From Agreia bicolorata (GTDB lineage Bacteria > Actinomycetota > Actinomycetes > Actinomycetales > Microbacteriaceae), in NCBI RefSeq assembly GCF_000938265.1, contig NZ_JYFC01000002.1, forward strand, positions 62,001 to 126,000: a stretch of 64,000 bases of DNA, read 5' to 3'. The notes beneath the pieces were generated by a model, which was not told where the DNA came from, did no database searches, and was given only the letters and a program-made list of their open reading frames with translations. Shown piece by piece: positions 31,622-45,670 of this stretch. The position numbers and the translations under genes are program-made. The number at the start of each line of letters is the position of its first letter. Positions within the stretch are counted from its first letter, which is position 1.

Positions 31622-33094
31622 TCACCTCACTCCCAGCGACACGTACTTCGTCTCCAGGTACTCGCTGATCCCCTCGTTCCCGCCTTCGCGGCCATAGCCA
31701 CTGGATTTGATCCCGCCGAACGGAGCCGCGGTATTCGAGAGCACGCCGCGGTTGAGGCCGACCATTCCCGCTTGAAGTCCTTCGATCACCCGTACACCCC
31801 GGTCGAGGTCGCGAGTGAAGACGTAGGAAGCCAGGCCGAATTCGCTGGAGTTGGCGAGGTCGAGCACCTCCTTCTCGGTGTTGAACGCGACGATGGGTGC
31901 GACGGGCCCGAAGATCTCCTCGCGAACCAGCCGTGAGTTCGCAGGAACCCCGGTGACGATCATCGGCGCGCACCACGCCCCTGCCGAGTCGGGCACGTCG
32001 CCCGCGTACTCGATGCGGGCGCCGTCGTCGAGCGCCGACTCCACCAGCTCGGTCACCTTCGTTACGGCGGCAGCGTCGATGAGCGGACCCAGCGTGACGC
32101 CATCGACGGTGCCTCGGCCGACCACGATGTTTTCGAACCGGGCACTCAGGGCGGCGGTGAAGGCATCCAGTACCGAGCTGTGCACGTAGAAGCGATTTGC
32201 CGCAGTGCACGCCTCGCCGTTGTTGCGAAGCTTCGCGCGCACCGCCTCGTCGGCGGCCATCTCGATGTCGGCGTCGTCGAAGACGATGAACGGGGCGTTG
32301 CCGCCGAGTTCCAGAGACGTGCGAAGCACACCCCGTGCCGACTGTTCGGCAAGGCGGATGCCGACCTCCGTCGACCCGGTGAACGACAGTTTGCGGAGTC
32401 GGCCGTCGCCGATGATCTCTGACACGACGGCCGATGCCCTCGACGTGGGGATGACGCTCAGCACGCCCTCGGGGAGCCCTGCTTCGAGCAGGATCTCGGC
32501 CAGCGCGAGCATCGAGAGCGGCGTCTGCTTCGCGGGCTTGATGATGATCGTGCACCCGGCGGCGATCGCGGGTCCGATCTTGCGGGTGCCCATGGCCAGC
32601 GGAAAGTTCCACGGGGTGACGAGGAGGCACGGCCCGACCGGCTGCGCCATCGTGATCAGGCGGGAGCCCCCGTCAGGAGCCATTCGCCAGCCGCCGGAGA
32701 TTCGCACCCCCTCTTCAGAGAACCAGCGAAAGAAGTCCGCCGCGTAGTGCACCTCGGAGAGCGACTCGGCCAGTGGCTTGCCCATTTCGAGCGTCATGAG
32801 GAGAGCCAGGTCGTCGGCACGGGCCGTCATGAGTTCGAATGCGCGGCGCAGTATCTCACCGCGCTCACGCGGCGGTACGGCGGCCCAGGTCGGCTGGGTC
32901 TCGTGCGCGATCCGGATGCTCTCCCGTGCGTCGTCGACACTGGCATCGGCGATGTGCGCGATGACCAGGCCGGTCGACGGGTCGTCGACAGCGAGCGTGG
33001 CGCCTGTGCTGGAATCCTGCCAACGGCCGCCGATGAGCAATTGCCGCGGAACAGCATCCACGATCGCCGCCTCGCGCGTGGGGGTTGAGGCCAT
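31622..33094 (-). CDS. Succinate-semialdehyde dehydrogenase family (ALDH superfamily)
   Basis: A 490-residue NAD(P)-dependent aldehyde dehydrogenase. LVTPWNFPLAMGTRKIGPAI, FTGSTEVG, LELGGNAPF (catalytic Glu) and NNGEACTAANRFYVH (nucleophile Cys) are those of the GabD-like subgroup that oxidises succinate semialdehyde to succinate. A strong AGGAGG site lies before the ATG at 33094, four bases after the CMD gene stop. Last gene of the catabolic set, it would suit the final oxidation step of a 4-hydroxybutyrate-type route. Confidence 0.9.
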   Translation of the reverse strand: MASTPTREAAIVDAVPRQLLIGGRWQDSSTGATLAVDDPSTGLVIAHIADASVDDARESIRIAHETQPTWAAVPPRERGEILRRAFELMTARADDLALLMTLEMGKPLAESLSEVHYAADFFRWFSEEGVRISGGWRMAPDGGSRLITMAQPVGPCLLVTPWNFPLAMGTRKIGPAIAAGCTIIIKPAKQTPLSMLALAEILLEAGLPEGVLSVIPTSRASAVVSEIIGDGRLRKLSFTGSTEVGIRLAEQSARGVLRTSLELGGNAPFIVFDDADIEMAADEAVRAKLRNNGEACTAANRFYVHSSVLDAFTAALSARFENIVVGRGTVDGVTLGPLIDAAAVTKVTELVESALDDGARIEYAGDVPDSAGAWCAPMIVTGVPANSRLVREEIFGPVAPIVAFNTEKEVLDLANSSEFGLASYVFTRDLDRGVRVIEGLQAGMVGLNRGVLSNTAAPFGGIKSSGYGREGGNEGISEYLETKYVSLGVR

Positions 33095-33098
33095 GCGC

Positions 33099-33863
33099 TC
33101 AGTCCTCCTGCTCGAGGGCGGAGATCTCCTCGATGAGAATAGGCACCGCCGTGGTCGCCGCATGGATGCCGATCACACTCGCGATCTCCATCACCTCGAG
33201 GATCTCCTCCGTGGTCGCTCCGTAGCCGAGCGCGTTCTCGAGGTGCAGCTTGAGCCCTGGAACATAGAGGTGGGTCGCGGCAGTGTCGAAGGCGATGTAG
33301 ACCAGCTCGCGCACCTTGGGCGAGAGTGTTCCCGTCTTCCAGGGAACGGAGGAGAACTCTGTGTAGGCCTCGAAGAGTTCGGGGTCGAGCTCGAGCATCT
33401 CATCCCAGAACGCGTGCCAGTACCCACGGTTCTCGGTGAACTCGGCCTTGATACGTTCCTGATCTGCCGTCAGGGGTGTGGGCGCCGTGCGCAGGCCCTT
33501 TTCTTCGAGCACTTTCACGAGCAGGGGCACGCCGATGTTCATCGCGTGGATTCCGAGCGTCGACGTGAGCTCGAGCACCTCCATGATCTCCTGCGGGGTC
33601 GCGCCGACTTTCAGCGCCGCCTTGATGTGCTGCCGGATGCCGGGCACATAGAGATGGGTGGCCGCGGCGTCGACCGCGATGTACATGAACTCCTTGGTCT
33701 TGTCGTCGAGGTGGTTCTTGCGCCACGGAACGGCAGAGAAGTTGAGGTAGGCGTGCAGGAACTCGGGATCGAGCTGGAGGATGCTCTCCCACGTGTCTCC
33801 CCATGCTCCGCGAACGCGGATGAATTCGGCTTTGATCTCTTCTTGGCGGGTGGTCAGGGCCAC
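33099..33863 (-). CDS. Tandem carboxymuconolactone decarboxylase (CMD) domain protein
   Basis: A 254-residue protein made of two similar CMD domains (about 1-125 and 130-254). Each has a motif of the form YIA-D-AATHLYVPG followed by H, then a GATP/TTEEI-MEV helix. The redox CxxC of AhpD-type members is absent. CMD-fold enzymes decarboxylate or reduce cyclic and peroxide substrates, and the reaction here is unknown. It starts 109 bp after the GntR gene ends and is probably co-transcribed with the semialdehyde dehydrogenase. Confidence 0.88.
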   Translation of the reverse strand: MALTTRQEEIKAEFIRVRGAWGDTWESILQLDPEFLHAYLNFSAVPWRKNHLDDKTKEFMYIAVDAAATHLYVPGIRQHIKAALKVGATPQEIMEVLELTSTLGIHAMNIGVPLLVKVLEEKGLRTAPTPLTADQERIKAEFTENRGYWHAFWDEMLELDPELFEAYTEFSSVPWKTGTLSPKVRELVYIAFDTAATHLYVPGLKLHLENALGYGATTEEILEVMEIASVIGIHAATTAVPILIEEISALEQED

Positions 33864-33972
33864 GATGTTCTCCTTTGAACTGTCTACGGTTCGAGCGGGT
33901 CGACGACGAACCCCGTGGGGTCGACGAAGACTGCCGGGTGATGAATGGATGAAACGTACTGCTGTGCGGGTG

Positions 33973-34674
33973 CTACTTGTCGGCGGTGAGACTGCCGAGG
34001 GCCGTCTTCGCCGCGGAGCGGACGTGGGCCGCGCAGAGCCGGGCTGCTCTCTTTGCGTCGCGGTTGGCCACCGCGTCGGTCACGGCGCGCAACTCGCGCA
34101 CCACCTCGGGAATACGACCGGCCTCCGACAGCGACGTCGCCCGCAGCACCTGCACTCGAGCCTGGATGCCCTCGAGTAACTGCTGCAGGGCTGAGCTCTG
34201 CGCCCCCTCGATGAGCACGGCGTAGAAGGTGTCCTTCGCCGCGAGGATCGCGCGAACCTCGGTCGTCGACTCGGCCACCGCTGCGAGGTGATCGATGGTT
34301 GCCGCGAGTCGCACGACCTGCTCGTCTGATGCGCGCTCCACGAACCTCTGCACCACGAGCGACTCGAGAGCGGCACGAACCTCGTAGAGGTCGATCGCAT
34401 CCTCGAGCGACGGAGCACTGACGATGGCGCCCTTCTGCGGAACGACGGTCACCAGGCCCTCTGAGGTGAGCTCGCGCAACGCCTCGCGAATCGTGGTGCG
34501 GGAGACGCCCAGCTGCTCGATCAGTTCGCGCTCGACGAGGCGCTGCCCGGGCTTGAGGTGAAAGTCCAGGATGGCCTGACGCAGGGCGGTGATGACCTGT
34601 TCGCGCAGCGGAGCCGCGATCCTGCCCATCGGTTCGGTGGTCCAGGACGCTGGCAGGGAGTTCGTTGAAGCCAT
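33973..34674 (-). CDS. GntR family transcriptional regulator (FadR/FCD subfamily)
   Basis: A 233-residue regulator. The N-terminal winged HTH has PLREQVITALRQAILDFHLKPGQRLVERELIEQLGVSRTTIREALREL, and the all-alpha C-terminal FCD domain has AAKDTFYAVLIEGAQ and RDAKRAARLCAAHV. FCD members bind carboxylate or hydroxy-acid effectors, often with zinc. The ATG at 34674 is preferred to a TTG three codons upstream. It is the likely controller of this island and the natural candidate for the TNGTNNNACNA boxes in the divergent promoter at 39969-40094. Confidence 0.9.
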   Translation of the reverse strand: MASTNSLPASWTTEPMGRIAAPLREQVITALRQAILDFHLKPGQRLVERELIEQLGVSRTTIREALRELTSEGLVTVVPQKGAIVSAPSLEDAIDLYEVRAALESLVVQRFVERASDEQVVRLAATIDHLAAVAESTTEVRAILAAKDTFYAVLIEGAQSSALQQLLEGIQARVQVLRATSLSEAGRIPEVVRELRAVTDAVANRDAKRAARLCAAHVRSAAKTALGSLTADK

Positions 34675-34731
34675 GTCACTCAATATATGTCGGTGAAGCC
34701 GGATCGGCGGATACGTACAAAGATCGGCGAA

Positions 34732-35631
34732 TCAGTCCATGGCTCCTCCCTGCAACGGATTCTGGCGCAGCCAGCGCGCGACCTCGGTGTGGTCGGCTCC
34801 CTGGCCAAGAGAATCGGATGCTCGCTGCCATCTCTCGACGGCAGTGCGGCCGAGCACGCTGGGCGCGCCGAGCTCCTCCGCGAGGTCGACGGCGATTCGC
34901 ATGTCTTTGAGCATGAGTCCGAGTCCGAACCCGGAGTCGTAGCTGTCGGTCAAAACGAAGTTGGGCCACTTGTTCTCGGTCGATCCGCTGCGGCCGCTCG
35001 AACTGTTGAAGACCCCCAGCAGCACTGCAGGGTCGAGCCCGAAGCGCTCGCCTGCGAGAACGGCCTCGCTCGTGGCCCAGAGGTGGGTGGCCGAGAGCAG
35101 ATTGTTGAGCGCCTTGGCGGCGTGGCCGGCACCCACCTCGCCCACCCGGGTGGGGCGACCCAGCGCGCTGAGAACGCCCTCCACAGCGGCAGCGTCGTCG
35201 GTCGAGCCGCCGACCATGATGGTGAGGCTGCCCGCCCGGGCTCCGGTGACGCCGCCCGACACGGGCGCATCCACGAACCGGATGCCGTCGGCGGCCAGTC
35301 TTTGGGCCAGAGCACGGCTACGCAGCGGCTCTGAGGAGCTCATGTCGACGACAATCGCTCCGGCCGCGAGCGCGGAGAGCACCGACTCGTCGCTGAGTAC
35401 GGCCTCGACGACCGAGGAGTTGGGCAGCATCAAGATCACGACGTCGGAGCCGGCCACGGCATCGGCCGCCGAGGTCGCGGGAGTTCCGCCCGATTCTGCG
35501 AGAGTGTCGCGTGCGCTCTCGGCGAGGTCGAATCCTGTGACGCGGTAGCCCGCCGCGACCAGCCGCGACGCCATGGGATTTCCCATGTTGCCGAGGCCGA
35601 TGAAGCTCACCGATGTATCAGGCTGCGTCAT
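34732..35631 (-). CDS. NAD(P)-dependent beta-hydroxyacid dehydrogenase, copy 1
   Basis: A 299-residue protein of the 3-hydroxyisobutyrate dehydrogenase/GLYR family. The Rossmann motif FIGLGNMGNPMASRL, the substrate motif DAPVSGGVTGARAGSL and the catalytic-Lys motif GAGHAAKALNNLL are all present. Family members oxidise 3-hydroxyisobutyrate, 4-hydroxybutyrate or tartronate or reduce the semialdehydes. The start overlaps the upstream CMD gene by 14 bp, so it is translationally coupled. A second copy lies at 36414-37316. Confidence 0.9.
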   Translation of the reverse strand: MTQPDTSVSFIGLGNMGNPMASRLVAAGYRVTGFDLAESARDTLAESGGTPATSAADAVAGSDVVILMLPNSSVVEAVLSDESVLSALAAGAIVVDMSSSEPLRSRALAQRLAADGIRFVDAPVSGGVTGARAGSLTIMVGGSTDDAAAVEGVLSALGRPTRVGEVGAGHAAKALNNLLSATHLWATSEAVLAGERFGLDPAVLLGVFNSSSGRSGSTENKWPNFVLTDSYDSGFGLGLMLKDMRIAVDLAEELGAPSVLGRTAVERWQRASDSLGQGADHTEVARWLRQNPLQGGAMD

Positions 35632-36022
35632 CCGGCCGCACCTCCCGTAGTACGCCCTCGGCGACCCGGAACGACTCGAGCGCGGCCGGAACGCCGACAT
35701 AGATCGCCGTCTGCAGCAGGGTCTCCTGAATCTCGGAGACCGTGGCTCCGTTCGTGAGCGCACCCTTTACATGCACACCCAGCTCGTGAGAACGATTCAG
35801 GGCAGTGAGCATCGCGATATTGAGCAGACTGCGGGTCTTGCGCGGCAGACCGTCGCTCGACCAGACCATGCCCCAGCAGTACTCCGTCACGAGCTCCTGG
35901 ATCGGCTTGCTGAACTCGCTGACCTGACCGAGCGAACGGTCGACGTGGGCAGCGCCGAGAACCTCGCGGCGCACCTGTAGTCCCTGCTCGTAGGTTTGGC
36001 GGTGGGTGTCGTCGCTGGTCAT
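35618..36022 (-). CDS. Carboxymuconolactone decarboxylase family protein (single domain)
   Basis: A 134-residue protein with one CMD domain: TEYCWGMVWSSDGLPRKTRSLLNIAMLTALNRSHELGVHVKGALTNGATVSEI, close to PcaC-type proteins. The enzyme of that name decarboxylates 4-carboxymuconolactone; here the lack of other protocatechuate genes argues for a different substrate. The ATG overlaps the cupin stop (ATGA), and it overlaps the next gene by 14 bp. Confidence 0.88.
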   Translation of the reverse strand: MTSDDTHRQTYEQGLQVRREVLGAAHVDRSLGQVSEFSKPIQELVTEYCWGMVWSSDGLPRKTRSLLNIAMLTALNRSHELGVHVKGALTNGATVSEIQETLLQTAIYVGVPAALESFRVAEGVLREVRPDDAA

Positions 36023-36417
36023 CGGATGCCCTTCGTGGCGGGTGGGTAGTCGGCGTCGGAAACTTCGGAATGCCATTCGGTGCTGCCGAGCGAAATGGCG
36101 GTGTGCGACATCACGGTGTCGGCGGTGGCACCGTGCCAGTGCCGCTGCCCGGGCGGAGTCCACACGGTGTCGCCCGCGCGCACTGACTGAGGTTGCTCGC
36201 CTTCGGCGCAGACCCAACCTGAGCCGGAGACGATTTCGAGGATCTGTCCACCCTCGTGTTCGTGCCAGAAGGTGTGCGCCCCTGGGGTGAAGGTCACCGT
36301 GTTGATCAGCACACCGTCGGTCAAGGGCAGAACGGGGTCAGCCCAGACGTCACCGGTGAACGTTGGTCCGCGCAAGTCGGTCGGGGTGCCGCCAGGGCGG
36401 CCCGGAATAACGATCAT
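36019..36417 (-). CDS. Cupin domain protein
   Basis: A 132-residue single cupin with FTPGAHTFWHEHEGGQILEIVSG (metal-ligand HxH...E set) and PPGQRHWHGATADTVMSHTAI (second motif His). It resembles the small cupins that often sit next to CMD proteins, where they act on quinones, lactones or peroxides; the reaction is unproven. It is coupled by ATGA overlaps to both neighbours, the second hydroxyacid dehydrogenase and the single-domain CMD gene. Confidence 0.85.
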   Translation of the reverse strand: MIVIPGRPGGTPTDLRGPTFTGDVWADPVLPLTDGVLINTVTFTPGAHTFWHEHEGGQILEIVSGSGWVCAEGEQPQSVRAGDTVWTPPGQRHWHGATADTVMSHTAISLGSTEWHSEVSDADYPPATKGIR

Positions 36418-37316
36418 GAGCCGACCGCCTCGTGCAGCCGCACGCCACCGGAGACATCGCCGATCGCATCCACCACCGTATTGCTGATCTCGTCGGCATA
36501 GCCGAGGGCCTTGGCCAGGCCGAAGCTCGCGAGGGGACCCGATGCATTGAGACTGGCCACGCCGAGTGTGCTCACCAGTTCGGTGTAGAGCACCACGTCT
36601 TTCATCATGAGCGTGTTGGTGAGGCCGCCCTTGAGGTAGTCGCCGTGAATGATCTTGGGAAAGCGATTCACCGTGGCGAAGTTCACCCCCGAGCTCGCGT
36701 TGAACACGTCGAGCAGAACCGCGAGGTCGAGGCCGGCCTTTTTGCCGGCAACCATCACTTCGGCCGTGGCGGCAAGAGAGACGGCGTTGAGAAAGTTGTT
36801 GAGCAACTTGGTGGTGTGCCCAGCCCCGCTGTCGCCGACATAGAAGATGTTGCTCGCGAAGCGTTCGAGCACGGGGCGCGCGGTCTCGAGCGCGGACTGC
36901 TCTCCGCCCACCATCAGGGTGAGCGCGCCCTTCTCTGCAGCGGCTGCTCCGCCCGAGATTCCGGCGTCGAGATACGACGCGCCCTTCTCTGCCAGAAGGG
37001 CCGAGATGCGCCGAGTGGATTCCGGCGCGGCCGTCGACAGGTCGACCACGACCTGGCCGGGGCGGGCGTGAGCGAGTACTCCGTCATCGCCAAGCACAAC
37101 GGCCTCGACCACGCGGCTGTCGGGCAGAGAGAGCAGCACGATGTCGCTCTGCTCTGTGAGCTGGGCCGAGTTCGTGGCGGCGCGGGCGCCGGCCAGCTCG
37201 ATGTTCTCGGCCTTCGCGTCGTAGCCGAGCACGTCGATGCCCGCGCCGGTGATGCAGCGGGTCATGCGCCCGCCCATGTTGCCGAGGCCGATGAAGCCGA
37301 TGTGCTTCTCCGTCAT
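36414..37316 (-). CDS. NAD(P)-dependent beta-hydroxyacid dehydrogenase, copy 2
   Basis: A 300-residue paralogue of copy 1 with FIGLGNMGGRMTRCI, DAGISGGAAAAEKGAL (DAGISGG instead of the usual DAPVSGG) and GAGHTTKLLNNFL with the catalytic Lys. The altered substrate motif suggests a different hydroxy acid or stereoisomer from copy 1. It is coupled by 4-bp overlaps to the SDR gene upstream and the cupin gene downstream. Confidence 0.9.
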   Translation of the reverse strand: MTEKHIGFIGLGNMGGRMTRCITGAGIDVLGYDAKAENIELAGARAATNSAQLTEQSDIVLLSLPDSRVVEAVVLGDDGVLAHARPGQVVVDLSTAAPESTRRISALLAEKGASYLDAGISGGAAAAEKGALTLMVGGEQSALETARPVLERFASNIFYVGDSGAGHTTKLLNNFLNAVSLAATAEVMVAGKKAGLDLAVLLDVFNASSGVNFATVNRFPKIIHGDYLKGGLTNTLMMKDVVLYTELVSTLGVASLNASGPLASFGLAKALGYADEISNTVVDAIGDVSGGVRLHEAVGS

Positions 37317-38224
37317 GACTGGTTCTCCTTCTCGTCGGTCTCCGGTGTGGATGGATGCGGGGTGGCTCGGGCGGGGGAGGCTTCGCCTGTGCGGCGGTAG
37401 AGCGGATCGTCGACGGTCGCGGTGTCCCAGGCGCCGGCGCCTCCCGAGGGGCGCACGGTGTTCACGATCGTCGCTCCTCCGTCGGCCGAGAGGATCTGCC
37501 CCGTCACATACGCGGAGGCATCGCTGAGCAGGAATGCCGCTACGTCGGCGATCTCCTCGGGGCTGCCGGCGCGACGCAGGGGCGTGGTGGATGCCCGGCG
37601 TTCCATGTCGTTCTTACCGCCTGTCGCTCCCGCCGCACCGGCGAACAGCTCGGTGGGCACGATGCCCGGCGCCACGCCGTTGACCCGGATGCCCAGGGGG
37701 CCGCCGTAGACCGCCGCGCCGTGCACGAGTCCCACGACCGCGTGCTTGGATGTCTGGTACGCGAGCAGGTCGGCACTGCCGGTGAGGCTGGCGATCGACG
37801 CGGTCACCACGATCGTTCCGACACTCTTTTGGGCGGAGAACTGCCGGAACGCCGCCCTCAGCCCGAGGAACTGGCCTCGCACATTCACGTTCATCACCCG
37901 ATCGAAGTCGTCGACCTCGAGGTCGGGCAGCGGAGCGAAGCTGCCGAAGATGCCGGCGTTGAGGTGGTGCAGATCGACATGTCCGAATCTGGCGACCGCC
38001 GCATCGAGGTAGTGCTGAACGTCCGCCTCGTTCGATACATCGGCCTGTACGGCGATCGCGGCCACAGGCAGCGATGCCGCCACCCTGTCTGCCGCCTCGC
38101 CATCGATGTCGACGACCACGACGTTGGCTCCTGAGGCGGCGAGCCGGCGGGCGGATGCTCGGCCCAGGCCGCCACCGGCTCCGGTGACGACCGCGACCTT
38201 TCCGGCGAACTGATCGTCGCTCAT
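37313..38224 (-). CDS. SDR family oxidoreductase (operon copy)
   Basis: A 303-residue short-chain dehydrogenase. TGAGGGLGR near residue 14 is the NAD(P) motif, ASIASLTGSADLLAYQTSK carries the catalytic Ser and YxxxK, and VTGQILSADGGATI is the C-terminal signature. The tail beyond residue about 260 (SGGAGAWDTATVDDPLYRRTG) is longer than in most SDRs. It probably oxidises or reduces a secondary alcohol or ketone ahead of the lactonase step. The ATG overlaps the lactonase-like gene stop. Confidence 0.9.
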   Translation of the reverse strand: MSDDQFAGKVAVVTGAGGGLGRASARRLAASGANVVVVDIDGEAADRVAASLPVAAIAVQADVSNEADVQHYLDAAVARFGHVDLHHLNAGIFGSFAPLPDLEVDDFDRVMNVNVRGQFLGLRAAFRQFSAQKSVGTIVVTASIASLTGSADLLAYQTSKHAVVGLVHGAAVYGGPLGIRVNGVAPGIVPTELFAGAAGATGGKNDMERRASTTPLRRAGSPEEIADVAAFLLSDASAYVTGQILSADGGATIVNTVRPSGGAGAWDTATVDDPLYRRTGEASPARATPHPSTPETDEKENQS

Positions 38225-39066
38225 CGCTGAACCTCGATCCTGCCGATGCTGGCGGCGAGGCCCGCGAACGGTCCGTCTGCGCCCCATGCCCTGAATCGGC
38301 TGAGGGTCTCTGCGTCGTGCCCCGAGACCACGTGATCCGCCTCGCCCGATCGGTTCATGTCTCGGATCAGGTCGAACGCCTCGTACATCTTCACCAGGTC
38401 GGCGACGTAAGTGAAGGGCATGTCGCGTTCGTATTCCTCGTAGAAGTGAACGGAGTCGGAGGCGAGCAGCACCGTGCCCTCGCTCGTGGCGACGCGCACC
38501 ACGCTCTGGCCAGGGGTGTGGCCGCCGACCTGGATGATCTCGATTCCGGGCGCGAGGGTGTGATGAGAGTCGAAGAGGGTCAGCCTGCCCTCAGCCTTCG
38601 CCCGGTCGAGCTGGACCAGGTCGTACTCTTCGATGGAGTGGTGGAACTGGGTTCGGGATGCATGGCGGCCTGTCCAGAATTCGTACTCCGCACGTGCGAG
38701 CACGATCTCCGAGGCATCGAAGTAGTCCACGTTGCCGGTGTGGTCGTAGTGAGCGTGGGTGATGATCACCGCGGGAGCCGAGTCGGGGGTGATTCCGAGC
38801 AGTTCGAACGCCGTGGGCGGGCTGATCAGCACGGTGCGCGCGCGCACCTCGCCGCCGTGTGCGGAGTAGCCGGTGTCGACCACGACGGTGCGCTCGGCAT
38901 TGCGGATCACCCAGAAGAAGTAGTCCATCTGAATCGACTCATCGGGCTCGCCGTAGAGCGGAAAATTCAGGAAGACGTCACTCTTCACAGTCTGCCGGGT
39001 GCCGTGCTTGACGATCAGCACTTCGTAGAGAGCGTGGTCGGGCGCCTCGGGCGATTCGCCGCTCAC
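38221..39066 (-). CDS. AHL-lactonase-like MBL-fold hydrolase, copy 1
   Basis: A 281-residue metallo-beta-lactamase fold protein. Zinc ligands are visible as HAHYDHTG, the His of GGHTPGQS, the Asp of ASDSVHF and the His of VSGHDAE, the set of AiiA/AttM-type lactonases. It also has MDYFFWVIRNAERTVVVDTGY, typical of that family. Lactone ring opening is the expected chemistry, for acyl-homoserine lactone, gamma-butyrolactone or another lactone. It overlaps the second lactonase-like gene and the SDR gene by 4 bp each. Confidence 0.88.
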   Translation of the reverse strand: MSGESPEAPDHALYEVLIVKHGTRQTVKSDVFLNFPLYGEPDESIQMDYFFWVIRNAERTVVVDTGYSAHGGEVRARTVLISPPTAFELLGITPDSAPAVIITHAHYDHTGNVDYFDASEIVLARAEYEFWTGRHASRTQFHHSIEEYDLVQLDRAKAEGRLTLFDSHHTLAPGIEIIQVGGHTPGQSVVRVATSEGTVLLASDSVHFYEEYERDMPFTYVADLVKMYEAFDLIRDMNRSGEADHVVSGHDAETLSRFRAWGADGPFAGLAASIGRIEVQR

Positions 39067-39878
39067 GCGAGCACGATCGCGACGTCGCCGGCGGCACCCG
39101 GGGCGGCAGGAAATCTCTGCCGAGTCCGGCCGTCGTGGCCGGGCACGACGGTGGAGCCGGTCTCTGCCGCCAGGGCGTTGATGAAGGTGAGACCGTCACG
39201 CATCTCCTGAATGTCGGTGAAGGCGAAGAACGGCCATTCGTTCTCGATCTGCTCGTAGAAGTGGGCCGCGTCGGAAGCAAGGATGAAGGAGCTGCCCGCG
39301 GTCTCGACCCGTACAACGAGTTCACCCGGGCAGTGGCCACCCACGGGGTAGACGGTGATGCCGGGGAAGATCTCGGTCTCTGCGTCGATAAGGCGAAGAC
39401 GATCCTCCACCTCGGCGATGCGCACGGGAACGAGGTGTTCCTCTACGGTGAACTCACCCTCGAGCTGGCCGGCTTCCCATTTGCCGAACCAGTAGTCGTA
39501 TTCGGCCCGTCCTGACACCACCTGGGCATTGGTGAAAAGCTTGAGGTAGCCGATGTGGTCGTAGTGAAAGTGCGAGGTGATCACCATGTCGACGGTGAGG
39601 GGATCGACGTCGACGAGTTCGAGCGCTCGCGGGGGCGGCGTCACGCTGATCTCCCCGAGCCAGTCGTGGGCGGGGATGTCGTAGCCCGTATCGACGAGGA
39701 TCGTTGCGTCGCCCGCTCGCAGAACCCAGAAGTTGTAGTCCATGTCGAGGTCGCCGTCGGGCAGGCCGTACGACGCGTAGTCGAAGAAGACGTCGCTTTT
39801 GCGGACAACACGCTCTCCGTACTTCACCTGCCAGATCGAGATCGGCCCGTGGCTGGCTTTCGAGAGATCTTCAGACAT
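39063..39878 (-). CDS. AHL-lactonase-like MBL-fold hydrolase, copy 2
   Basis: A 271-residue paralogue of the previous gene with HFHYDHIG, GGHCPGEL, the Asp of ASDAAHF and VPGHDGR as zinc ligands, and MDYNFWVLRAGDATILVDTGY. It is first in the seven-gene operon. The ATG at 39878 is chosen over 39884, because AAAGGGG is six bases from the former but touches the latter. Two lactonases in one operon suggest either two lactone intermediates or two isomers. Confidence 0.88.
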   Translation of the reverse strand: MSEDLSKASHGPISIWQVKYGERVVRKSDVFFDYASYGLPDGDLDMDYNFWVLRAGDATILVDTGYDIPAHDWLGEISVTPPPRALELVDVDPLTVDMVITSHFHYDHIGYLKLFTNAQVVSGRAEYDYWFGKWEAGQLEGEFTVEEHLVPVRIAEVEDRLRLIDAETEIFPGITVYPVGGHCPGELVVRVETAGSSFILASDAAHFYEQIENEWPFFAFTDIQEMRDGLTFINALAAETGSTVVPGHDGRTRQRFPAAPGAAGDVAIVLA

Positions 39879-39968
39879 TTTCATCCCCTTTGATGAGTGG
39901 TTCTAATCGTCAAGTCTGCTGGATCGTGGACCATTCTGCTTCTTCGTCGTACGACCCGGCACTGCCTG

Positions 39969-39997
39969 ACTATATGATCGTCATACAAAATACGCAA
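39969..39997 (-). promoter_or_regulatory. Minus-strand promoter (TTGCGT-17-TATAGT) of the lactonase operon
   Basis: On the minus strand TTGCGT (39992-39997) and TATAGT (39969-39974) are separated by exactly 17 bp. The spacer contains a GntR-type box, so binding of a repressor would block RNA polymerase. Confidence 0.6.
39978..39988. promoter_or_regulatory. GntR/FCD-type operator box 1 (TCGTCATACAA)
   Basis: It matches TNGTNNNACNA, the consensus for FadR-subfamily GntR regulators, and shares GTCATACAA with box 2. It lies between the -35 and -10 of the minus-strand promoter. Confidence 0.6.
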
Positions 39998-40045
39998 GCA
40001 TTTCTCCGGGCGGGAAGAAATTCCCATGATTCCGGCTTTTTGCTC

Positions 40046-40075
40046 TTGACATCGGCGCGATTGCGGGTCAAGAAT
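40046..40075 (+). promoter_or_regulatory. Plus-strand promoter (TTGACA-18-AAGAAT) of the ABC importer operon
   Basis: A perfect TTGACA (40046-40051) is followed after 18 bp by AAGAAT (40070-40075), four of six matches to TATAAT. Transcription would start near 40082-40085, at the edge of operator box 2. Confidence 0.5.
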
Positions 40076-40083
40076 ACTCGTGA

Positions 40084-40094
40084 TTGTCATACAA
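40084..40094. promoter_or_regulatory. GntR/FCD-type operator box 2 (TTGTCATACAA)
   Basis: It fits TNGTNNNACNA and sits inside the inverted pair ATTGT-CAT-ACAAT. It overlaps the expected transcription start of the importer operon, the usual position of a repressor site. Confidence 0.65.
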
Positions 40095-40189
40095 TCATAC
40101 GGTCATCCATTCCGCTCGACTGATCGCAGTGTCGCGATTTACCCCGACTCACCGCGCGCAGCCGGCCCATCACAGAAGGGCTATTTGCA

Positions 40190-41167
40190 ATGAAGCGAAT
40201 CGCCACAGCAGCACTCACGGCACTCGTCGCGCTCTCCCTGGTCGGCTGCGCCGGGGGCGCACCGTCGGCAGACCCGTCGTCGGGCGGGGGTGAGGGGGGA
40301 ACCAAGGTGCTGGGCATCGTCGCCTACATCGGTAACAACGCGATCAATCAGCAGGCCATCCGTGGCGCACAGTCTGTTGCCGAGGAAGCCGGCTGGGAGG
40401 TCAAAGTCACCGACACTCAGGGCAGCGCAGACCAGGCGAACGCGGCCATGTCGTCGTACGCGTCGCAGGGGGTCGATGGAATCCTCACGCTCGTCTTCTC
40501 GGCCACCGCACTCGGTTCGGGGTTGGCCGCCGCGCAGGCGGCAGACGTGCCGGTCATCAACTGGGGCGGTGGGCTTGCCGACGGCATCATCGCGACGACG
40601 AGCAACGCGGCGGTCGGTGCGGCGTCGGCCAATGCCCTCGTCGACACCATGGGCGACGAGGGCGATGTTCTGGCCCTCACCTTCCACCCCGGCAAGCTCT
40701 GCCTCGACCACGGAGACGAGTTCGACGCGGCTGTGGCCAAGAAGCCTGGTCTCAAGATCACCTACAACGAGCTCGTTGTACCCGGCCAGCAGCAGTCCGC
40801 GGCAAACTTCACCAGTGCTTGGCTCGCGAGCCACCCCGCAGACGGCGGAAACTACGGAATCTGGACCTGCTGGGACGAGCCCATGGAGGGCATCATCTCG
40901 GCGCTCGCCCAGGCCGGCCGCACCGACGTCAAGACCTTCAGCACCAACGGCAGCGCGCCGGGCATCCTCGACGTGCAGGCCGGAACGGTGACCAGTGTCG
41001 TGTGGCAGCCATCCGAGGACGAGGGCTCCGCACTGATGAAGGCTCTACTCGACTACATCGCCGACCCCAGCGGGTGGGAGCAGAAGACCATCAAGATCGA
41101 CGGGGTCGTGGTCGACAAGAGCAATGTCGACGACTTCATCGCCGAACATCCCGACGCCATCAAGTAG
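40190..41167 (+). CDS. Ribose-type ABC transporter substrate-binding lipoprotein 1
   Basis: A 325-residue periplasmic-binding-protein family 4 (Peripla_BP_4) lipoprotein. The signal peptide ends with LVGC (Cys at 20), followed by a Gly/Ser linker. VLGIVAYIGNNAINQQAIRGAQSVAEEAGWEV and DTQGSADQANAAMSSYASQGVDGIL match sugar/autoinducer binding proteins such as RbsB and LsrB. Two cysteines occur in GKLCLDHG and GIWTCWDEP. It delivers an unknown ligand to the ABC importer encoded downstream. The divergent lactonase operon points to a lactone, sugar lactone or related molecule. Confidence 0.92.
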   Translation: MKRIATAALTALVALSLVGCAGGAPSADPSSGGGEGGTKVLGIVAYIGNNAINQQAIRGAQSVAEEAGWEVKVTDTQGSADQANAAMSSYASQGVDGILTLVFSATALGSGLAAAQAADVPVINWGGGLADGIIATTSNAAVGAASANALVDTMGDEGDVLALTFHPGKLCLDHGDEFDAAVAKKPGLKITYNELVVPGQQQSAANFTSAWLASHPADGGNYGIWTCWDEPMEGIISALAQAGRTDVKTFSTNGSAPGILDVQAGTVTSVVWQPSEDEGSALMKALLDYIADPSGWEQKTIKIDGVVVDKSNVDDFIAEHPDAIK

Positions 41168-41191
41168 ATCGCGCAGCACACCCACGGGTCT

Positions 41192-41207
41192 GCCCGCCTC
41201 GGCGGGC
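41192..41207 (+). terminator. Hairpin between the two binding-protein genes
   Basis: GCCCGC and GCGGGC pair around a CTCG tetraloop. It lies 25 bp after the first binding-protein gene and could partly terminate transcription or stabilise its mRNA, giving more binding protein than transporter. Confidence 0.45.
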
Positions 41208-41307
41208 CGACCATCCACGGCGACGACGGCATCCGCCGTTCGGCGCGTCAATCAATGACGATTGCGGCCCCATCAGGGGTCGACAGCACTAGAGACAGGT
41301 GAACGCA

Positions 41308-42279
41308 ATGAAGCGAACAATGACCATACTCGCCCTGGCGAGTGTCGCGATGCTCGGGTTGGCGGGCTGCAGCGCGCCGGCCAACGACGGCGGATCGAGC
41401 GGGCAAGCCTCCCAGAAAACCCTCGGCATCGTGGCTCTCGTCGCCACCGACGCACTCAACGCGGCGGTAATCAAGGGGGCGACGGAGGCTGCGGAGGCTG
41501 CGGGTTGGACGGTGACCGTCACAGACACCCAGGGCAGCCCCGACAAGGCGAACGCCGCCATGACGGCGTTCTCCACCACCCAGAAGGTCGATGCGATTCT
41601 CGTCTCGGCGTTTGCCAGCAGTTCCATCGGCGGCGGTCTTGCGTCGGCGAAGACAGCGGGCATTCCCGTGGTGAGCTGGGGCGGCGAGCTGGTCGATGGA
41701 ATCGTCGCCACGACGAGCGCACTGAAAGTGGGCGAGGATTCGGTCGACGCCCTGCTGACCGACTTTGGCGACAGTGGTGACGTACTTGCCCTCACGTATC
41801 ACACGGGCGTGCTGTGCCTCTATCGCGGCCAGGCCTTCGACGAGGCCATCAAGAAGACGGATATCTCCCTGGTGAGCAACGAGGTCGCCATCCCTGGCCA
41901 GGTCGAGGACGGCACCAACTTCACGGCCGCCTGGCTTGCGAGCCACCCAGAAGGCAGCGGCAACTACGCCGTGTGGGGAGCGTGGGACGAGCCGGCCATG
42001 GGCGCCATCGCTGCCCTGAAGCAGGCCGGACGCACCGACGTCAAGGTCTACTCGATCAACGGAAGCCCGGCGGCGCTGCAGGCAGTGAAAGACGGCACGA
42101 TGACGCAGATCATCTGGCAGGACGGCTACACGGAGGGGCAGGAGCTGTTCCAGTCGGTGCTCGACTCGGATAAGGCCGGCGACTCGTGGCAGCCGAAGAC
42201 GATCGATGTTCCCGGTGTGCTCGTGGACTCGGACACCATCGACGGCTTCCTCGCTGAGCACCCCGACGCGCTCACCTGA
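41308..42279 (+). CDS. Ribose-type ABC transporter substrate-binding lipoprotein 2
   Basis: A 323-residue paralogue of binding protein 1. The signal peptide ends with LAGC, followed by LGIVALVATDALNAAVIKGATEAAEAAGW, DTQGSPDKANAAM and GVLCLYRG, where the Cys of protein 1 is kept. The ATG at 41308 is preferred to a GTG at 41299, because the GTG lies within AGGTGA, which acts as its ribosome site. Two solute-binding proteins feeding one ATPase-permease pair suggest two ligands. Confidence 0.91.
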   Translation: MKRTMTILALASVAMLGLAGCSAPANDGGSSGQASQKTLGIVALVATDALNAAVIKGATEAAEAAGWTVTVTDTQGSPDKANAAMTAFSTTQKVDAILVSAFASSSIGGGLASAKTAGIPVVSWGGELVDGIVATTSALKVGEDSVDALLTDFGDSGDVLALTYHTGVLCLYRGQAFDEAIKKTDISLVSNEVAIPGQVEDGTNFTAAWLASHPEGSGNYAVWGAWDEPAMGAIAALKQAGRTDVKVYSINGSPAALQAVKDGTMTQIIWQDGYTEGQELFQSVLDSDKAGDSWQPKTIDVPGVLVDSDTIDGFLAEHPDALT

Positions 42280-42326
42280 TCGAGCGCTTGACCCACGTAC
42301 ACCCCCGAAGAAAGGAGTCTCTGCTG

Positions 42327-43865
42327 ATGCAGAGCGAAAGCAGCAGCGCCTGGTTGCAGGTGCGCGGACTGAGTAAGAGCTTCGGGGGTGCCCGCGCTCT
42401 CTCCGAGGTGGACATCGACATCCATCGCGGGGAGGTGCACGGGCTCGTCGGGGCCAATGGAGCGGGCAAATCGACCCTCATCCGGTGTCTCGCCGGCATA
42501 ACGGCGCCCGACACGGGGAGTGTAACGATCGATGGCGACGACGTTCGGATCTCCCAGCCCCGCGATGCCGAGGTGGCAGGGCTCGCGTTCATCCACCAGG
42601 AACTCAACCTGGTGCCTCATTTCACGGCCGTGCAGAACATTCTGCTCGGGGCGCCGAAGGTGACCCGTGCGGGCATCATCAACTGGAAGAAATCACGCAA
42701 GGTGGCGTACGCGGCCGCTGAACGGATCGGCGTGCAGTTCTCGCTCGAGCGCCGGGTCGAAGACCTGAGCGTGGCGGAGCGCTGGCTTGTGATGATCAGC
42801 AAGGCTTTGGTGCGCAACGCCACGATGATCGCGATGGACGAGCCCACTGCGTCACTCTCCGATCACGAGAGTGCGCAGTTGTTCCGAGTGATCCGCGACC
42901 TGTCGCGGGATGGCGTCGCCATTCTCTATGTCTCGCACCGCCTTGATGAGGTGCTCGAACTCTCTGACCGCATCACCGTCTTCCGCGACGGCCGGGTGAC
43001 CGAGACCGCCGTGCGCGGCCAGCTCGACAAGCGCGGTTTGATCCGCGCGATCGTGGGACGCGAGGTCATCGCGGCCGTACGACAGGACCGAAAAGCGACC
43101 CCCGGCACCGAGCCGCTCTTCGAAGCCAAGCACGTGGCCAGGGGCTCGGCGGTCAAGGACGTGTCGTTCACGTTGTATCCCGGCGAGGTGCTCGGTCTCG
43201 GTGGTCTGGTGGGGGCGGGCCGCACAGAGCTTGCCAGGCTCGCCTTCGGCGCCGACAAGCTCGAGGCGGGCAGCTTCGAGCTGCGCGGACGCCCACTGCA
43301 GCCGAACTCGGTTCCGCGCGCCGTCGCCAACGGAATCGGCCTGGTACCCGAGGAACGCAGATCTGAGGGTCTGATGCTCGAGAAGTCGGTCTCGTACAAC
43401 ATGAATGTCGCCGTGCTTCGCTCGCTGCGCAGTGTCCCGGGACTACCGTTCCTCAGCTCCAGCAAGACTCGGGCCCGGTCCAACCGGCTGGTCGATCAAC
43501 TGCAGATCAAGACGCAGAACATCAACGAACCGATCGGCGGCCTGTCGGGTGGCAACCAGCAGAAGGCATTGATCGCCCGCTGGCTCACGCCGGGAATCCA
43601 GGTGCTCTTTCTCGACGAGCCGTCGCGTGGCGTCGATATCGGGGCGCGGCAGGAGATCCACCAGGCCATCCGTGACCTCGCTGACAGGGGCGTGGGTGCC
43701 ATCGTCATCTCTTCCGATGTGGAGGAACTCGCCGCGCTCTGCGACCGCGTCGTGGTGATGTGCGAGGGACTCGTCAGCGGCGAGGTCTCGGGCGACGAGG
43801 TCACGGAACAGAACATCATCGAGCTCAGCTACGCCCACCTGCAAACACAAGGAGAATCGGCATGA
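42327..43865 (+). CDS. Ribose-type ABC transporter ATP-binding protein (two ABC domains)
   Basis: A 512-residue RbsA/MglA-type ATPase. The first domain has Walker A GANGAGKST, DLSVAERWLVMISKAL as the signature region and DEPTASLS. The second domain has GLGGLVGAGRTELARLAF, LSGGNQQKALIARWL and FLDEPSRGVDIGAR. As in RbsA the second Walker A is altered (GAGRTE). It couples ATP hydrolysis to import. The ATG at 42327 is nine bases after AAAGGAG; codons upstream are not supported. It overlaps the permease gene (ATGA). Confidence 0.93.
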   Translation: MQSESSSAWLQVRGLSKSFGGARALSEVDIDIHRGEVHGLVGANGAGKSTLIRCLAGITAPDTGSVTIDGDDVRISQPRDAEVAGLAFIHQELNLVPHFTAVQNILLGAPKVTRAGIINWKKSRKVAYAAAERIGVQFSLERRVEDLSVAERWLVMISKALVRNATMIAMDEPTASLSDHESAQLFRVIRDLSRDGVAILYVSHRLDEVLELSDRITVFRDGRVTETAVRGQLDKRGLIRAIVGREVIAAVRQDRKATPGTEPLFEAKHVARGSAVKDVSFTLYPGEVLGLGGLVGAGRTELARLAFGADKLEAGSFELRGRPLQPNSVPRAVANGIGLVPEERRSEGLMLEKSVSYNMNVAVLRSLRSVPGLPFLSSSKTRARSNRLVDQLQIKTQNINEPIGGLSGGNQQKALIARWLTPGIQVLFLDEPSRGVDIGARQEIHQAIRDLADRGVGAIVISSDVEELAALCDRVVVMCEGLVSGEVSGDEVTEQNIIELSYAHLQTQGESA

Positions 43866-44890
43866 ACCCCACACCCACCCTCGCGTCCGCTGCCGAGGCG
43901 AGCCCTGCGGCCGGGGCTGTCTCGCTCGAGAGGAACCGGCGACGAGTCGCCCTCGTCATCCTGTCGCGCTACGGAACCCTAATCGGATTGACAGCGATGG
44001 TCGTCGCCTTCACTATCCGCGCACCCACGACATTCCTCACGCTGCCCAACTTTCTGAACATTCTCAACCAGTCGTCGCTCACGGCGATCATCGCCGCCGG
44101 TCTCACCATGACGTTGGTCGTCGGCGAATTCGACCTGAGTATCGGCTACGTCGCCAGCTTTGCCGGCCTCATCGTGGTGGGCTTCATCGCCCGAGACGGG
44201 CTGCCCATGCTGCTCGCCGTTCCCTTGGTGCTCCTCATCGGGGCGGGAATCGGAACCACGAGCGGATTCCTCGTGACCAAAGTGCGAATAAATGCGGTGA
44301 TCGCCACACTCGGAATAGGCACGATCCTGGTCGGAGCCGGCTTTGCGTACAGCGCCTTCCCCATCGCCGCGGGCGTGCCAGCCGAGTTCGTGCAGATCTC
44401 GCTCGGCAAGCCGGTCTTCGGCATTCCCAACCCGATCCTGATCATGGTGGTCGTGCTGGCCATCCTCTGGGTCATCCTGAACAAGACCGACCTCGGCCAG
44501 AAGATGCAGGCGGTCGGCGGCAACATCGAAGCCGCGAGGCTCTCGGGGATCCGGGTCGACCGCGTCAAGATGTTCGCTTTCGCCACCGCCGGCGTGTGCG
44601 CCGCACTCACCGGCACACTTCTCTCGAGCCTGCTGGGCAGCGGCACTCTTGCCGCCGCCGACGGGTACCTTTTGGATGCTTTTGCCGCCGTCTTCCTCGG
44701 ATCGGCAACTCTGCGCGACGGTGAGTTCCACATTGTCGGCACCCTCGTTGGAGTGCTGATCATCGCCGTCGGATTCAACGGGCTCAGCATCTTCGGAGCG
44801 CCCACGTTCTTCCAGCCCATTTTCAAGGGCGCGATCCTCGTGCTCGCGGTCGGGCTGTCGACGCTCGCCAGGCGCTACGCCAAGGCTTAG
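43862..44890 (+). CDS. Ribose-type ABC transporter permease
   Basis: A 342-residue membrane protein with about 8-10 TM segments and the BPD_transp_2 pattern: QSSLTAIIAAGLTMTLVVGEFDLSIGYVASFAG, VGGNIEAARLSGIRVDRVKMFAF and YLLDAFAAVFLGSATLRDG. It is like RbsC. It forms the membrane channel for the importer, presumably as a homodimer. ATGA overlap with the ATPase gene. An upstream N-terminal extension in the same frame overlaps the ATPase gene and was rejected. Confidence 0.93.
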   Translation: MNPTPTLASAAEASPAAGAVSLERNRRRVALVILSRYGTLIGLTAMVVAFTIRAPTTFLTLPNFLNILNQSSLTAIIAAGLTMTLVVGEFDLSIGYVASFAGLIVVGFIARDGLPMLLAVPLVLLIGAGIGTTSGFLVTKVRINAVIATLGIGTILVGAGFAYSAFPIAAGVPAEFVQISLGKPVFGIPNPILIMVVVLAILWVILNKTDLGQKMQAVGGNIEAARLSGIRVDRVKMFAFATAGVCAALTGTLLSSLLGSGTLAAADGYLLDAFAAVFLGSATLRDGEFHIVGTLVGVLIIAVGFNGLSIFGAPTFFQPIFKGAILVLAVGLSTLARRYAKA

Positions 44891-44947
44891 CGCCGTTTCC
44901 CCTCACGACACCTCACCACTCACCACCACACTAAGGAGCACATCATC

Positions 44948-45670
44948 ATGGACCGACTTCAGGGCAAGGTCGCACTGATCACCGGCGGCGCACGCGGCCA
45001 GGGCCGCGAGATGGCCGAACTCTTCACCGCGGAGGGTGCCACGGTCATCGCTGGCGACGTGCTCGACGCAGCGGACACGGAGTCGAGCGCGGTCACCTTC
45101 GTCAGACTCGACGTCACGAGCGAGGAATCGTGGAAGAGCGTTATCGACGAGATCGTGGCCACGCACGGCAAGCTCGACATTCTCGTCAACAACGCGGCGA
45201 TCATCACCTACGAGTCCATTCTCGACACCACCGTCGAGATCTGGAATCGAATCATCGATGTCGACCAGAAAGGCGTCTTCCTCGGTATGCGGGAGGCGCT
45301 GCCGCACCTCATCAAGACCGGCAAGGGCGCCATCGTCAACGTCTCATCCATCTGGGGGCTGGCCGCTGTGCCCAGCGCCCACGCGTATCACGCGGCCAAG
45401 GGTGCCATTCTCAATATGACCAAGAACGTGGCCTCCGCGCACGGCGAAGACGGGGTGCGGGCCAACTCGCTGCATCCGGGCTACATCCTGTCGCCCATGA
45501 ACGAGCACCAGGCACCCGAAATCAACGCCGCGCTCACGGCGGGCACGCTTCTCAAACGTCCGGGTATGCCGATCGAGACGGCGTATGCAGCCCTGTTTCT
45601 GGCGAGCGACGAGGCGAGCTACGTCACAGGAACGTCGTTGGTCGTCGATGGAGGCTACCTGGCTCCGTGA
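44948..45670 (+). CDS. SDR family oxidoreductase (importer operon copy)
   Basis: A 240-residue classical SDR with GKVALITGGARGQGREMAELF (cofactor motif), NNAAIITYESIL, NVSSIWGLAAVPSAHAYHAAKGAILNM (Ser, Tyr, Lys) and YVTGTSLVVDGGYLAP. It resembles the 3-alpha(20-beta)-hydroxysteroid and cyclohexanol dehydrogenases, which act on ring alcohols. As the last gene of the importer operon it probably handles the first oxidation of the imported compound. AAGGAG precedes the ATG by about eight bases. Confidence 0.92.
   Translation: MDRLQGKVALITGGARGQGREMAELFTAEGATVIAGDVLDAADTESSAVTFVRLDVTSEESWKSVIDEIVATHGKLDILVNNAAIITYESILDTTVEIWNRIIDVDQKGVFLGMREALPHLIKTGKGAIVNVSSIWGLAAVPSAHAYHAAKGAILNMTKNVASAHGEDGVRANSLHPGYILSPMNEHQAPEINAALTAGTLLKRPGMPIETAYAALFLASDEASYVTGTSLVVDGGYLAP

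Follow-up and report, generated by a model that had tools for sequence, protein, structure and literature searches.

We describe here a divergent gene island of Agreia bicolorata, at positions 31622-45670 of the 64,000-nucleotide stretch analysed (hereafter the window), in which ten minus-strand genes face a five-gene plus-strand arm and every frame is open. With a confidence that falls a little short of even, we read this island as a system under GntR control that takes up and breaks down a lactone-forming carbon source, probably polyhydroxylated or cyclic, with the reactions, their order and the sense of regulation proposed from sequence features. A GntR-linked divergent island for uptake and breakdown around lactonase-type enzymes was already the core of the original prediction made on this DNA, and that claim is upheld at the level of genes, predicted fold and motif: all the genes it named are present with open frames, the predicted fold of the hydrolase MBL2 is nearest to acyl-homoserine lactone (AHL) lactonases, and the operators recur in related loci. 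The cassette is an uncharacterised catabolic set built from known enzyme families. A word search of titles and abstract starts in one open-access library found no description of this gene combination, an absence that is not proof and that agrees with the earlier statement that no described pathway with this exact set was known to its author; the protein of the carboxymuconolactone decarboxylase (CMD) family mentioned in PMC9040811 is one encoded next to LuxR/LuxI-type genes of Acidithiobacillus.

Gene order and operators of the island

Seven minus-strand genes, each overlapping the next by 4-14 bases in a pattern like that of a translationally coupled operon, form the center of the island: the lactonase-type metallo-hydrolases MBL1 (39063-39884; Lactamase_B) and MBL2 (38221-39066), the NAD-type short-chain dehydrogenase SDR1 (37313-38224), the beta-hydroxyacid dehydrogenase HDH1 (36414-37316), a cupin of hydroxynitrile-lyase type (36019-36417), the PcaC-like single-domain CMD protein CMDs (35618-36022) and a second beta-hydroxyacid dehydrogenase, HDH2 (34732-35631). 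Downstream of HDH2, after gaps of 57, 109 and 4 bases, lie a GntR/FCD regulator (33973-34674; Pfam GntR and FCD), the two-domain CMD-family protein CMDd (33099-33863; Pfam CMD in two stretches) and an aldehyde dehydrogenase (31622-33094; Pfam Aldedh) resembling succinate-semialdehyde dehydrogenase (SSADH). The plus-strand arm encodes two ribose-type substrate-binding proteins, SBP1 (40190-41167) and SBP2 (41299-42279), both matching Peripla_BP_4 and the latter nearest in the PDB to chains of ribose-type binding proteins; a two-domain ABC transporter ATPase (42327-43865; ABC_tran in two stretches) and a permease (43859-44890; BPD_transp_2), each with an inferred start; and the NAD-type short-chain dehydrogenase SDR2 (44948-45670), assigned, like SDR1, through Pfam. 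That the importer has two substrate-binding proteins was absent from the original prediction. Paralogous pairs, which that prediction did not mention either, make up most of the island, with identities of 39% for MBL1/MBL2, 40% for HDH1/HDH2, 32% for SDR1/SDR2, 48% for SBP1/SBP2 and, over 67 residues, 36% for CMDs/CMDd. The G+C content of the island (63-67%) gives no compositional sign of transfer.

The 305-bp divergent gap between MBL1 and SBP1 carries two operators predicted by motif search and assigned to no strand, TCGTCATACAA (39978-39988) and TTGTCATACAA (40084-40094), so that the "matching operators" noted earlier correspond to two real FadR-type motif sites. The 3.92-Mb genome contains the strict pattern WTYGTNNNACAAW four times, twice inside this gap; the chance that at least two of four random places fall within 305 bp is 4e-8, for a pattern picked after sight of the window sites and of those in relatives. 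A wider motif (TTGT-N3-ACAA, TCGT-N3-ACAA or TTGT-N3-ACGA), applied to the 76 mapped loci described below plus the window, yields 77 intergenic matches (0.456/kb) versus 19 coding ones (0.0136/kb), densities in which four of the 76 loci are duplicates and genes were called by our own script. By hand count, 14 of 26 distinct MBL1 loci have the motif ahead of MBL1; in other loci it precedes MFS genes (loci L026 and L051), binding-protein genes (L124-L127) and CMDs (Acidiphilium and Paraburkholderia). The operator rule for the FadR subfamily, as given in a section of PMC4494728, consists of TKGT/ACMA boxes with three nucleotides between GT and AC. The site at 40084 fits this TKGT-N3-ACMA palindrome and the one at 39978 departs from it by a single base (TCGT); the island operators hence resemble sites of FadR-subfamily GntR proteins, with binding by the GntR regulator predicted.

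Distribution of the cassette and its variable front ends

Scanning named genomes with MBL1 returned 24 loci, 23 of them actinobacterial (61-78% identity) and one distant locus (24%) that was set aside. Among relatives, MBL1 was found at 67-77% identity in 5 of 98 other genomes, with any match at E <= 0.001 in 36 of 99; within the family, 35 of 398 genomes hold MBL2 at E <= 1e-60, and a phylum-wide sample of 396 genomes yields 3 with MBL2 at E <= 1e-50, the source genome being included in both counts. The cassette is a patchy, accessory trait. A total of 76 loci were mapped, 72 after four duplicates had been dropped, and 46 of them carry MBL1 (at least 60% identity) or MBL2 (at least 49%).

Across these loci, a core MBL2-SDR1-HDH1-(cupin)-CMDs-HDH2 recurs in several actinobacterial orders and, partially, in Proteobacteria. 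SDR1, HDH1, CMDs and HDH2 are all present in 35 of 40 distinct MBL2 loci, accompanied by CMDd in 31, the cupin in 30, the GntR/FCD ortholog in 29, MBL1 in 20 and SDR2 in 10. The aldehyde dehydrogenase, with orthologs (at least 50% identity) in only 9 of the 40, is outside the conserved core. Conversely, 26 MBL1 loci contain MBL2 in 20 cases and CMDd in 23. Same-strand neighbours recur among the 46 loci (CMDs-HDH2 in 35, HDH1-cupin in 30), and HDH1, cupin and CMDd stand consecutively in three proteobacterial plasmid loci, from Acidiphilium, Sodalis and Paraburkholderia. Class-mean identities to the window in Actinobacteria are 65-76% for HDH1, 63-77% for CMDs, 59-81% for CMDd, 60-75% for SDR1, 56-64% for HDH2, 54-63% for the cupin and 51-59% for MBL2; the three proteobacterial loci retain 67% (HDH1), 62% (CMDd), 56% (cupin), 50% (CMDs), 47% (HDH2) and 36% (MBL2). 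HDH1 is steady over both phyla and MBL2 is the least so, and a hydrolase varying more than HDH1 or CMDs is what would be expected if MBL2 faces a varying substrate. A tree of 39 HDH1 sequences, built with a quick method and carrying SH-aLRT support without bootstrap, places two mycobacterial sequences inside Microbacteriaceae, and its branches with strong support require the Microbacteriaceae label to change three times or more. This mixing of mycobacterial and Microbacteriaceae labels points to horizontal spread of the cassette.

Importers and putative front-end enzymes are exchanged between loci. The importers are of ribose-type ABC, branched-chain-type ABC, MFS and taurine/nitrate-type ABC families, the last three named from sequence inspection and annotated kin rather than by family search, and some loci hold two. 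Five loci have a GMC enzyme immediately before MBL2; the single member searched is nearest to FAD glucose and fructose dehydrogenases and is adjoined by a Gluconate_2-dh3 protein. Six loci (L054, L121 and L124-L127) carry a phenol-oxidase-type enzyme, which in L124 is nearest to 4-allylsyringol and eugenol oxidase and is adjoined by an NmrA-like protein. The same locus encodes a second FAD_binding_4 protein that matches bagremycin/ferroverdin oxygenase models below cut-off. Because front ends vary in this way, we favor a shared downstream core over one fixed substrate. The original prediction had proposed comparing the cluster in relatives and had named conservation of only part of the set in a different role as evidence against it: the core does recur, accompanied by different importers and by front-end enzymes of phenol-oxidase or sugar-dehydrogenase-like type, which tells in part against the original proposal.

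Inspection of the MBL1 loci that lack MBL2 (L030, L031, L032, L036, L039 and L042) gave a substrate clue in L036 only. In this locus, from Pseudonocardia CNS-004, MBL1-CMDd-SDR2 is followed by a 540-bp gap, three genes and then an acetoin-dehydrogenase-type complex, the E2 of which exceeds its NCBIfam cut-off while the E1 subunits score under cut-off against models of pyruvate dehydrogenase. Such a complex would suit an acyloin product. SDR2 here adjoins CMDd/MBL1, and in L030 it adjoins MBL1.

Several reduced or distant arrangements were also observed. The Agreia genome itself holds a second, reduced module (L057, contig C12, ~458-461 kb) made of four consecutive genes: an MBL with 46% identity to MBL2, a CMD protein, a beta-hydroxyacid dehydrogenase with 43% identity to HDH2, and an FAD_binding_3 monooxygenase. 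Plasmids of Salipiger abyssi and Agrobacterium larrymoorei (L068 and L069) combine a branched-chain-type ABC importer, an SDR, a HIBADH-type dehydrogenase, a lactonase-type MBL and a GntR regulator next to two MaoC-type hydratases, CoA transferases and a CoA ester lyase, a combination reminiscent of itaconate/mesaconate breakdown. Plasmid pTomRC1a of Sphingobium sp. RC1 groups SSADH, a PcaC-like CMD protein, a beta-hydroxyacid dehydrogenase and GntR (L076:6832-10666). A plasmid of Sulfitobacter mediterraneus (L063) places a distant MBL relative with a TRAP transporter, a 3-oxo-tetronate kinase and an aldolase, a context that suggests a sugar-acid lactonase role for this distant branch of the MBL family.

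Enzymes of the proposed route

The HxHxDH metal motif is invariant in 16 MBL2 sequences and present in 26 of 27 MBL1 sequences, and the PDB chains nearest to MBL1 are AHL lactonases. The AlphaFold model of MBL2 (pLDDT 88) likewise best matches AHL lactonases, with 4-pyridoxolactonase (3aj3) at rank 14 among the 50 matches listed. By fold and motif, MBL2 is an AHL-lactonase-like MBL-fold protein for which lactone hydrolysis itself is predicted. Both hydrolases fall below every named lactonase cut-off in NCBIfam, including those of AttM/BlcC (50.4 and 51.5 bits versus 390), AiiA and 4-pyridoxolactonase (MBL1 53 and MBL2 45 bits versus 325); against five AHL-lactonase models they score 30-75 bits versus cut-offs of 360-475, the best being 75.2 versus 375. 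HDH1 and HDH2, both NAD_binding_2/NAD_binding_11 proteins, similarly miss the HIBADH (valine breakdown) cut-off of 291.6 bits, with 188 and 234.6 bits. With all these scores under their cut-offs, the named AHL-lactonase, pyridoxolactonase and HIBADH functions were rejected.

The catalytic Lys is kept in 39 of 39 HDH1 and 40 of 40 HDH2 sequences. An Asp after the second Rossmann strand denotes NAD preference, and it is conserved in HDH1 (39 of 39), HDH2 (39 of 40, with one gap), SDR1 (37 of 37) and SDR2 (14 of 14), which argues for a catabolic direction of the island. SDR1, at 224.8 bits, exceeds the 215-bit cut-off of PRK07231, a broad "glucose 1-dehydrogenase" subfamily, and its nearest PDB structure is levodione reductase 1iy8.

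CMDd matches PDB entry 2q0t, a two-domain CMD protein of Paraburkholderia xenovorans, along its length (E 1.7e-96), and the function of such two-domain proteins is described as so far unreported in a portion of PMC5615479. The CxxC motif was found in none of 42 CMDd and 43 CMDs sequences of at least 55% identity, so the CMD proteins are not expected to be AhpD-type peroxidases and the earlier suggestion that they handle a peroxide becomes unlikely. CMDs narrowly misses the PcaC model (152.3 bits versus 155.7). In the cupin, H52, H54, Q58, H93, H95 and H105 are invariant in 12 sequences; H52, H54, Q58 and H93 provide the His/His/Gln/His metal set of hydroxynitrile lyases, and the nearest PDB chains, 4bif and 4uxa, we take to be the Granulicella tundricola hydroxynitrile lyase, with the ligand set of that enzyme likewise assumed. 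The island cupin, at 123.1 bits, misses the 140-bit NCBIfam mandelonitrile-lyase cut-off and sits in a putative catabolic operon.

In the proposed route, the importer would take the compound into the cell, where NAD-linked oxidation of a ring alcohol or lactol by SDR2 and/or SDR1 would give a lactone or ketone. Lactone rings would be opened by MBL1 and MBL2 to yield hydroxy acids, HDH1 and HDH2 would convert beta-hydroxy acids to beta-oxo acids, and the CxxC-free CMD proteins would decarboxylate these, one CMD partner per dehydrogenase. The cupin may contribute a metal-dependent carbon-carbon or isomerisation step, and the aldehyde dehydrogenase, where present, would act last. Oxidation-decarboxylation pairs are proposed because each dehydrogenase consistently neighbours a CMD or cupin-CMD partner. 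The ribose-type importer, the GMC sugar-dehydrogenase-like front ends and the acetoin-type complex of L036 suggest a substrate that is possibly sugar-like. A more specific version, which we regard as speculative and on balance unlikely, is a mobile and hitherto undescribed "open, oxidise, decarboxylate" pathway in which two lactonases and two matched pairs (HDH1 with cupin and CMDd; HDH2 with CMDs) would strip carbon from a molecule with two lactone or beta-hydroxy-acid units, such as a sugar-derived or lignan-core bis-lactone, one core serving differing upstream oxidations.

A number of observations weigh against these proposals. The conservation gradient is not clean, as the cupin and HDH2 vary about as much as MBL2, and 5 of the 40 MBL2 loci lack SDR1, HDH1, CMDs and HDH2 at the thresholds used (L025 is a cut piece; the versions in L059 and L128-L130 are more distant). 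The five GMC-MBL2 loci have no CMDd, and five of the six phenol-oxidase loci no cupin, which means that some loci do not contain both dehydrogenase-CMD pairs; a phenol-oxidase-type front end, found in 6 of the 46 loci, is not suggestive of sugar. No operator match precedes MBL1 in 12 of the 26 MBL1 loci by hand count; eight of these (L030 and L036-L042) also have no orthologous GntR in the mapped stretch, and four (L021, L026, L033 and L043) do have one. Three loci outside these 12 (L025, L031 and L032) carry a site with no GntR in the mapped piece. Decarboxylation of beta-oxo acids by CMD proteins is extrapolated from PcaC, and the putative substrate and activities are predicted from sequence and modelled fold.

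Alternative routes and known systems

The original prediction likened the island to the Agrobacterium Blc system. On such a route, HDH1 and HDH2 would act as hydroxybutyrate-type dehydrogenases, and a lactone would pass through an omega-hydroxy acid and a semialdehyde before ending as a dicarboxylate, for instance succinate. The likeness accounts only for the lactonase and the aldehyde dehydrogenase. In its favour, MBLs of lactonase type share one regulated island with hydroxyacid dehydrogenases and an SSADH-like enzyme; SSADH-like genes also accompany CMD-HDH pairs in L072, L076 and L128-L130, and some HIBADH-family proteins act on succinic semialdehyde. It is the Blc-like end of the pathway that is not supported. 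The Blc 4-hydroxybutyrate dehydrogenase is of the iron alcohol-dehydrogenase type, and the Blc dehydrogenase and regulator families differ from those of the island, whose HDH1/HDH2 and GntR/FCD proteins are not BlcB-type or BlcR-type. The MBLs lie far below the AttM cut-off. The aldehyde dehydrogenase has SSADH as its best NCBIfam match, at 528 bits versus a cut-off of 646. Its scarcity among the MBL2 loci and the presence of SDRs, a cupin, two CMD proteins and an ABC importer, of which the CMD proteins and the cupin find no place in the route, lead us to consider the Blc-like route improbable. A related logic occurs in vitamin B6 (pyridoxine) degradation, which pairs the SDR pyridoxal 4-dehydrogenase with the MBL 4-pyridoxolactonase; the island shares this SDR-plus-MBL-lactonase arrangement and a predicted MBL2 fold near 3aj3, but SDR1 (163 bits) and SDR2 (158 bits), like the MBLs, are far under the respective 325-bit cut-offs.

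Somewhat less improbable than the Blc route, although still doubtful, is that phenolic plant compounds such as lignans, once flavoenzymes have removed their aromatic groups, leave an aliphatic, lactone-bearing remnant on which the core acts, the window version importing the remnant directly. The phenol-oxidase-type loci and their NmrA-like neighbour speak for it, as do plasmids of R. rhodochrous and R. qingshengii (L072 and L073, outside the 46 loci), where CMDs-HDH2-GntR is annotated beside an FAD monooxygenase, P450s and a maleylacetate reductase; PMC12607616 describes the oxidative pinoresinol route of strain SG-MS2 as incompletely elucidated. Yet the window island has no aromatic enzyme and a ribose-type importer, other loci have GMC sugar-dehydrogenase-like enzymes, and a term search for six of the cassette enzyme names in PMC12607616 found none. 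Quorum quenching, or scavenging of AHL or gamma-butyrolactone autoregulators, would fit the fold and sequence of the MBLs, which are nearest to AHL lactonases; given their distance from the AHL-lactonase cut-offs, and the dehydrogenases, CMD proteins, cupin and importers it leaves unexplained, we judge it very unlikely. Equally far from probable, or slightly more so, is a branch off the beta-ketoadipate pathway in which an MBL would serve as enol-lactonase and CMDs, close to the PcaC cut-off, as PcaC. The island is without neighbouring pca genes, neither a dioxygenase nor PcaB is among its genes, and the genome encodes another PcaC, this one above the model cut-off, at C12:483497-483859; a PcaB-like gene (C12:481369-482397; 297.6 bits versus 355.75) lies 1.1 kb away. 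With these two genes elsewhere in the genome, the branch was rejected; the stretch C12:481369-483859 probably holds the beta-ketoadipate genes.

Returning to a GntR-controlled lactone-catabolic cassette as the preferred reading, solving its function would annotate the 46 mapped clusters and more together, and the recurring operator offers a direct handle for screening inducing compounds. Were the "open, oxidise, decarboxylate" pathway true, hydroxynitrile-lyase-type cupins would gain a natural role as carbon-carbon-cleaving catabolic enzymes. More generally, the function of the cassette would give a role to two-domain CMD proteins and hydroxynitrile-lyase-like cupins, and might also uncover how a common plant or soil compound is broken down.

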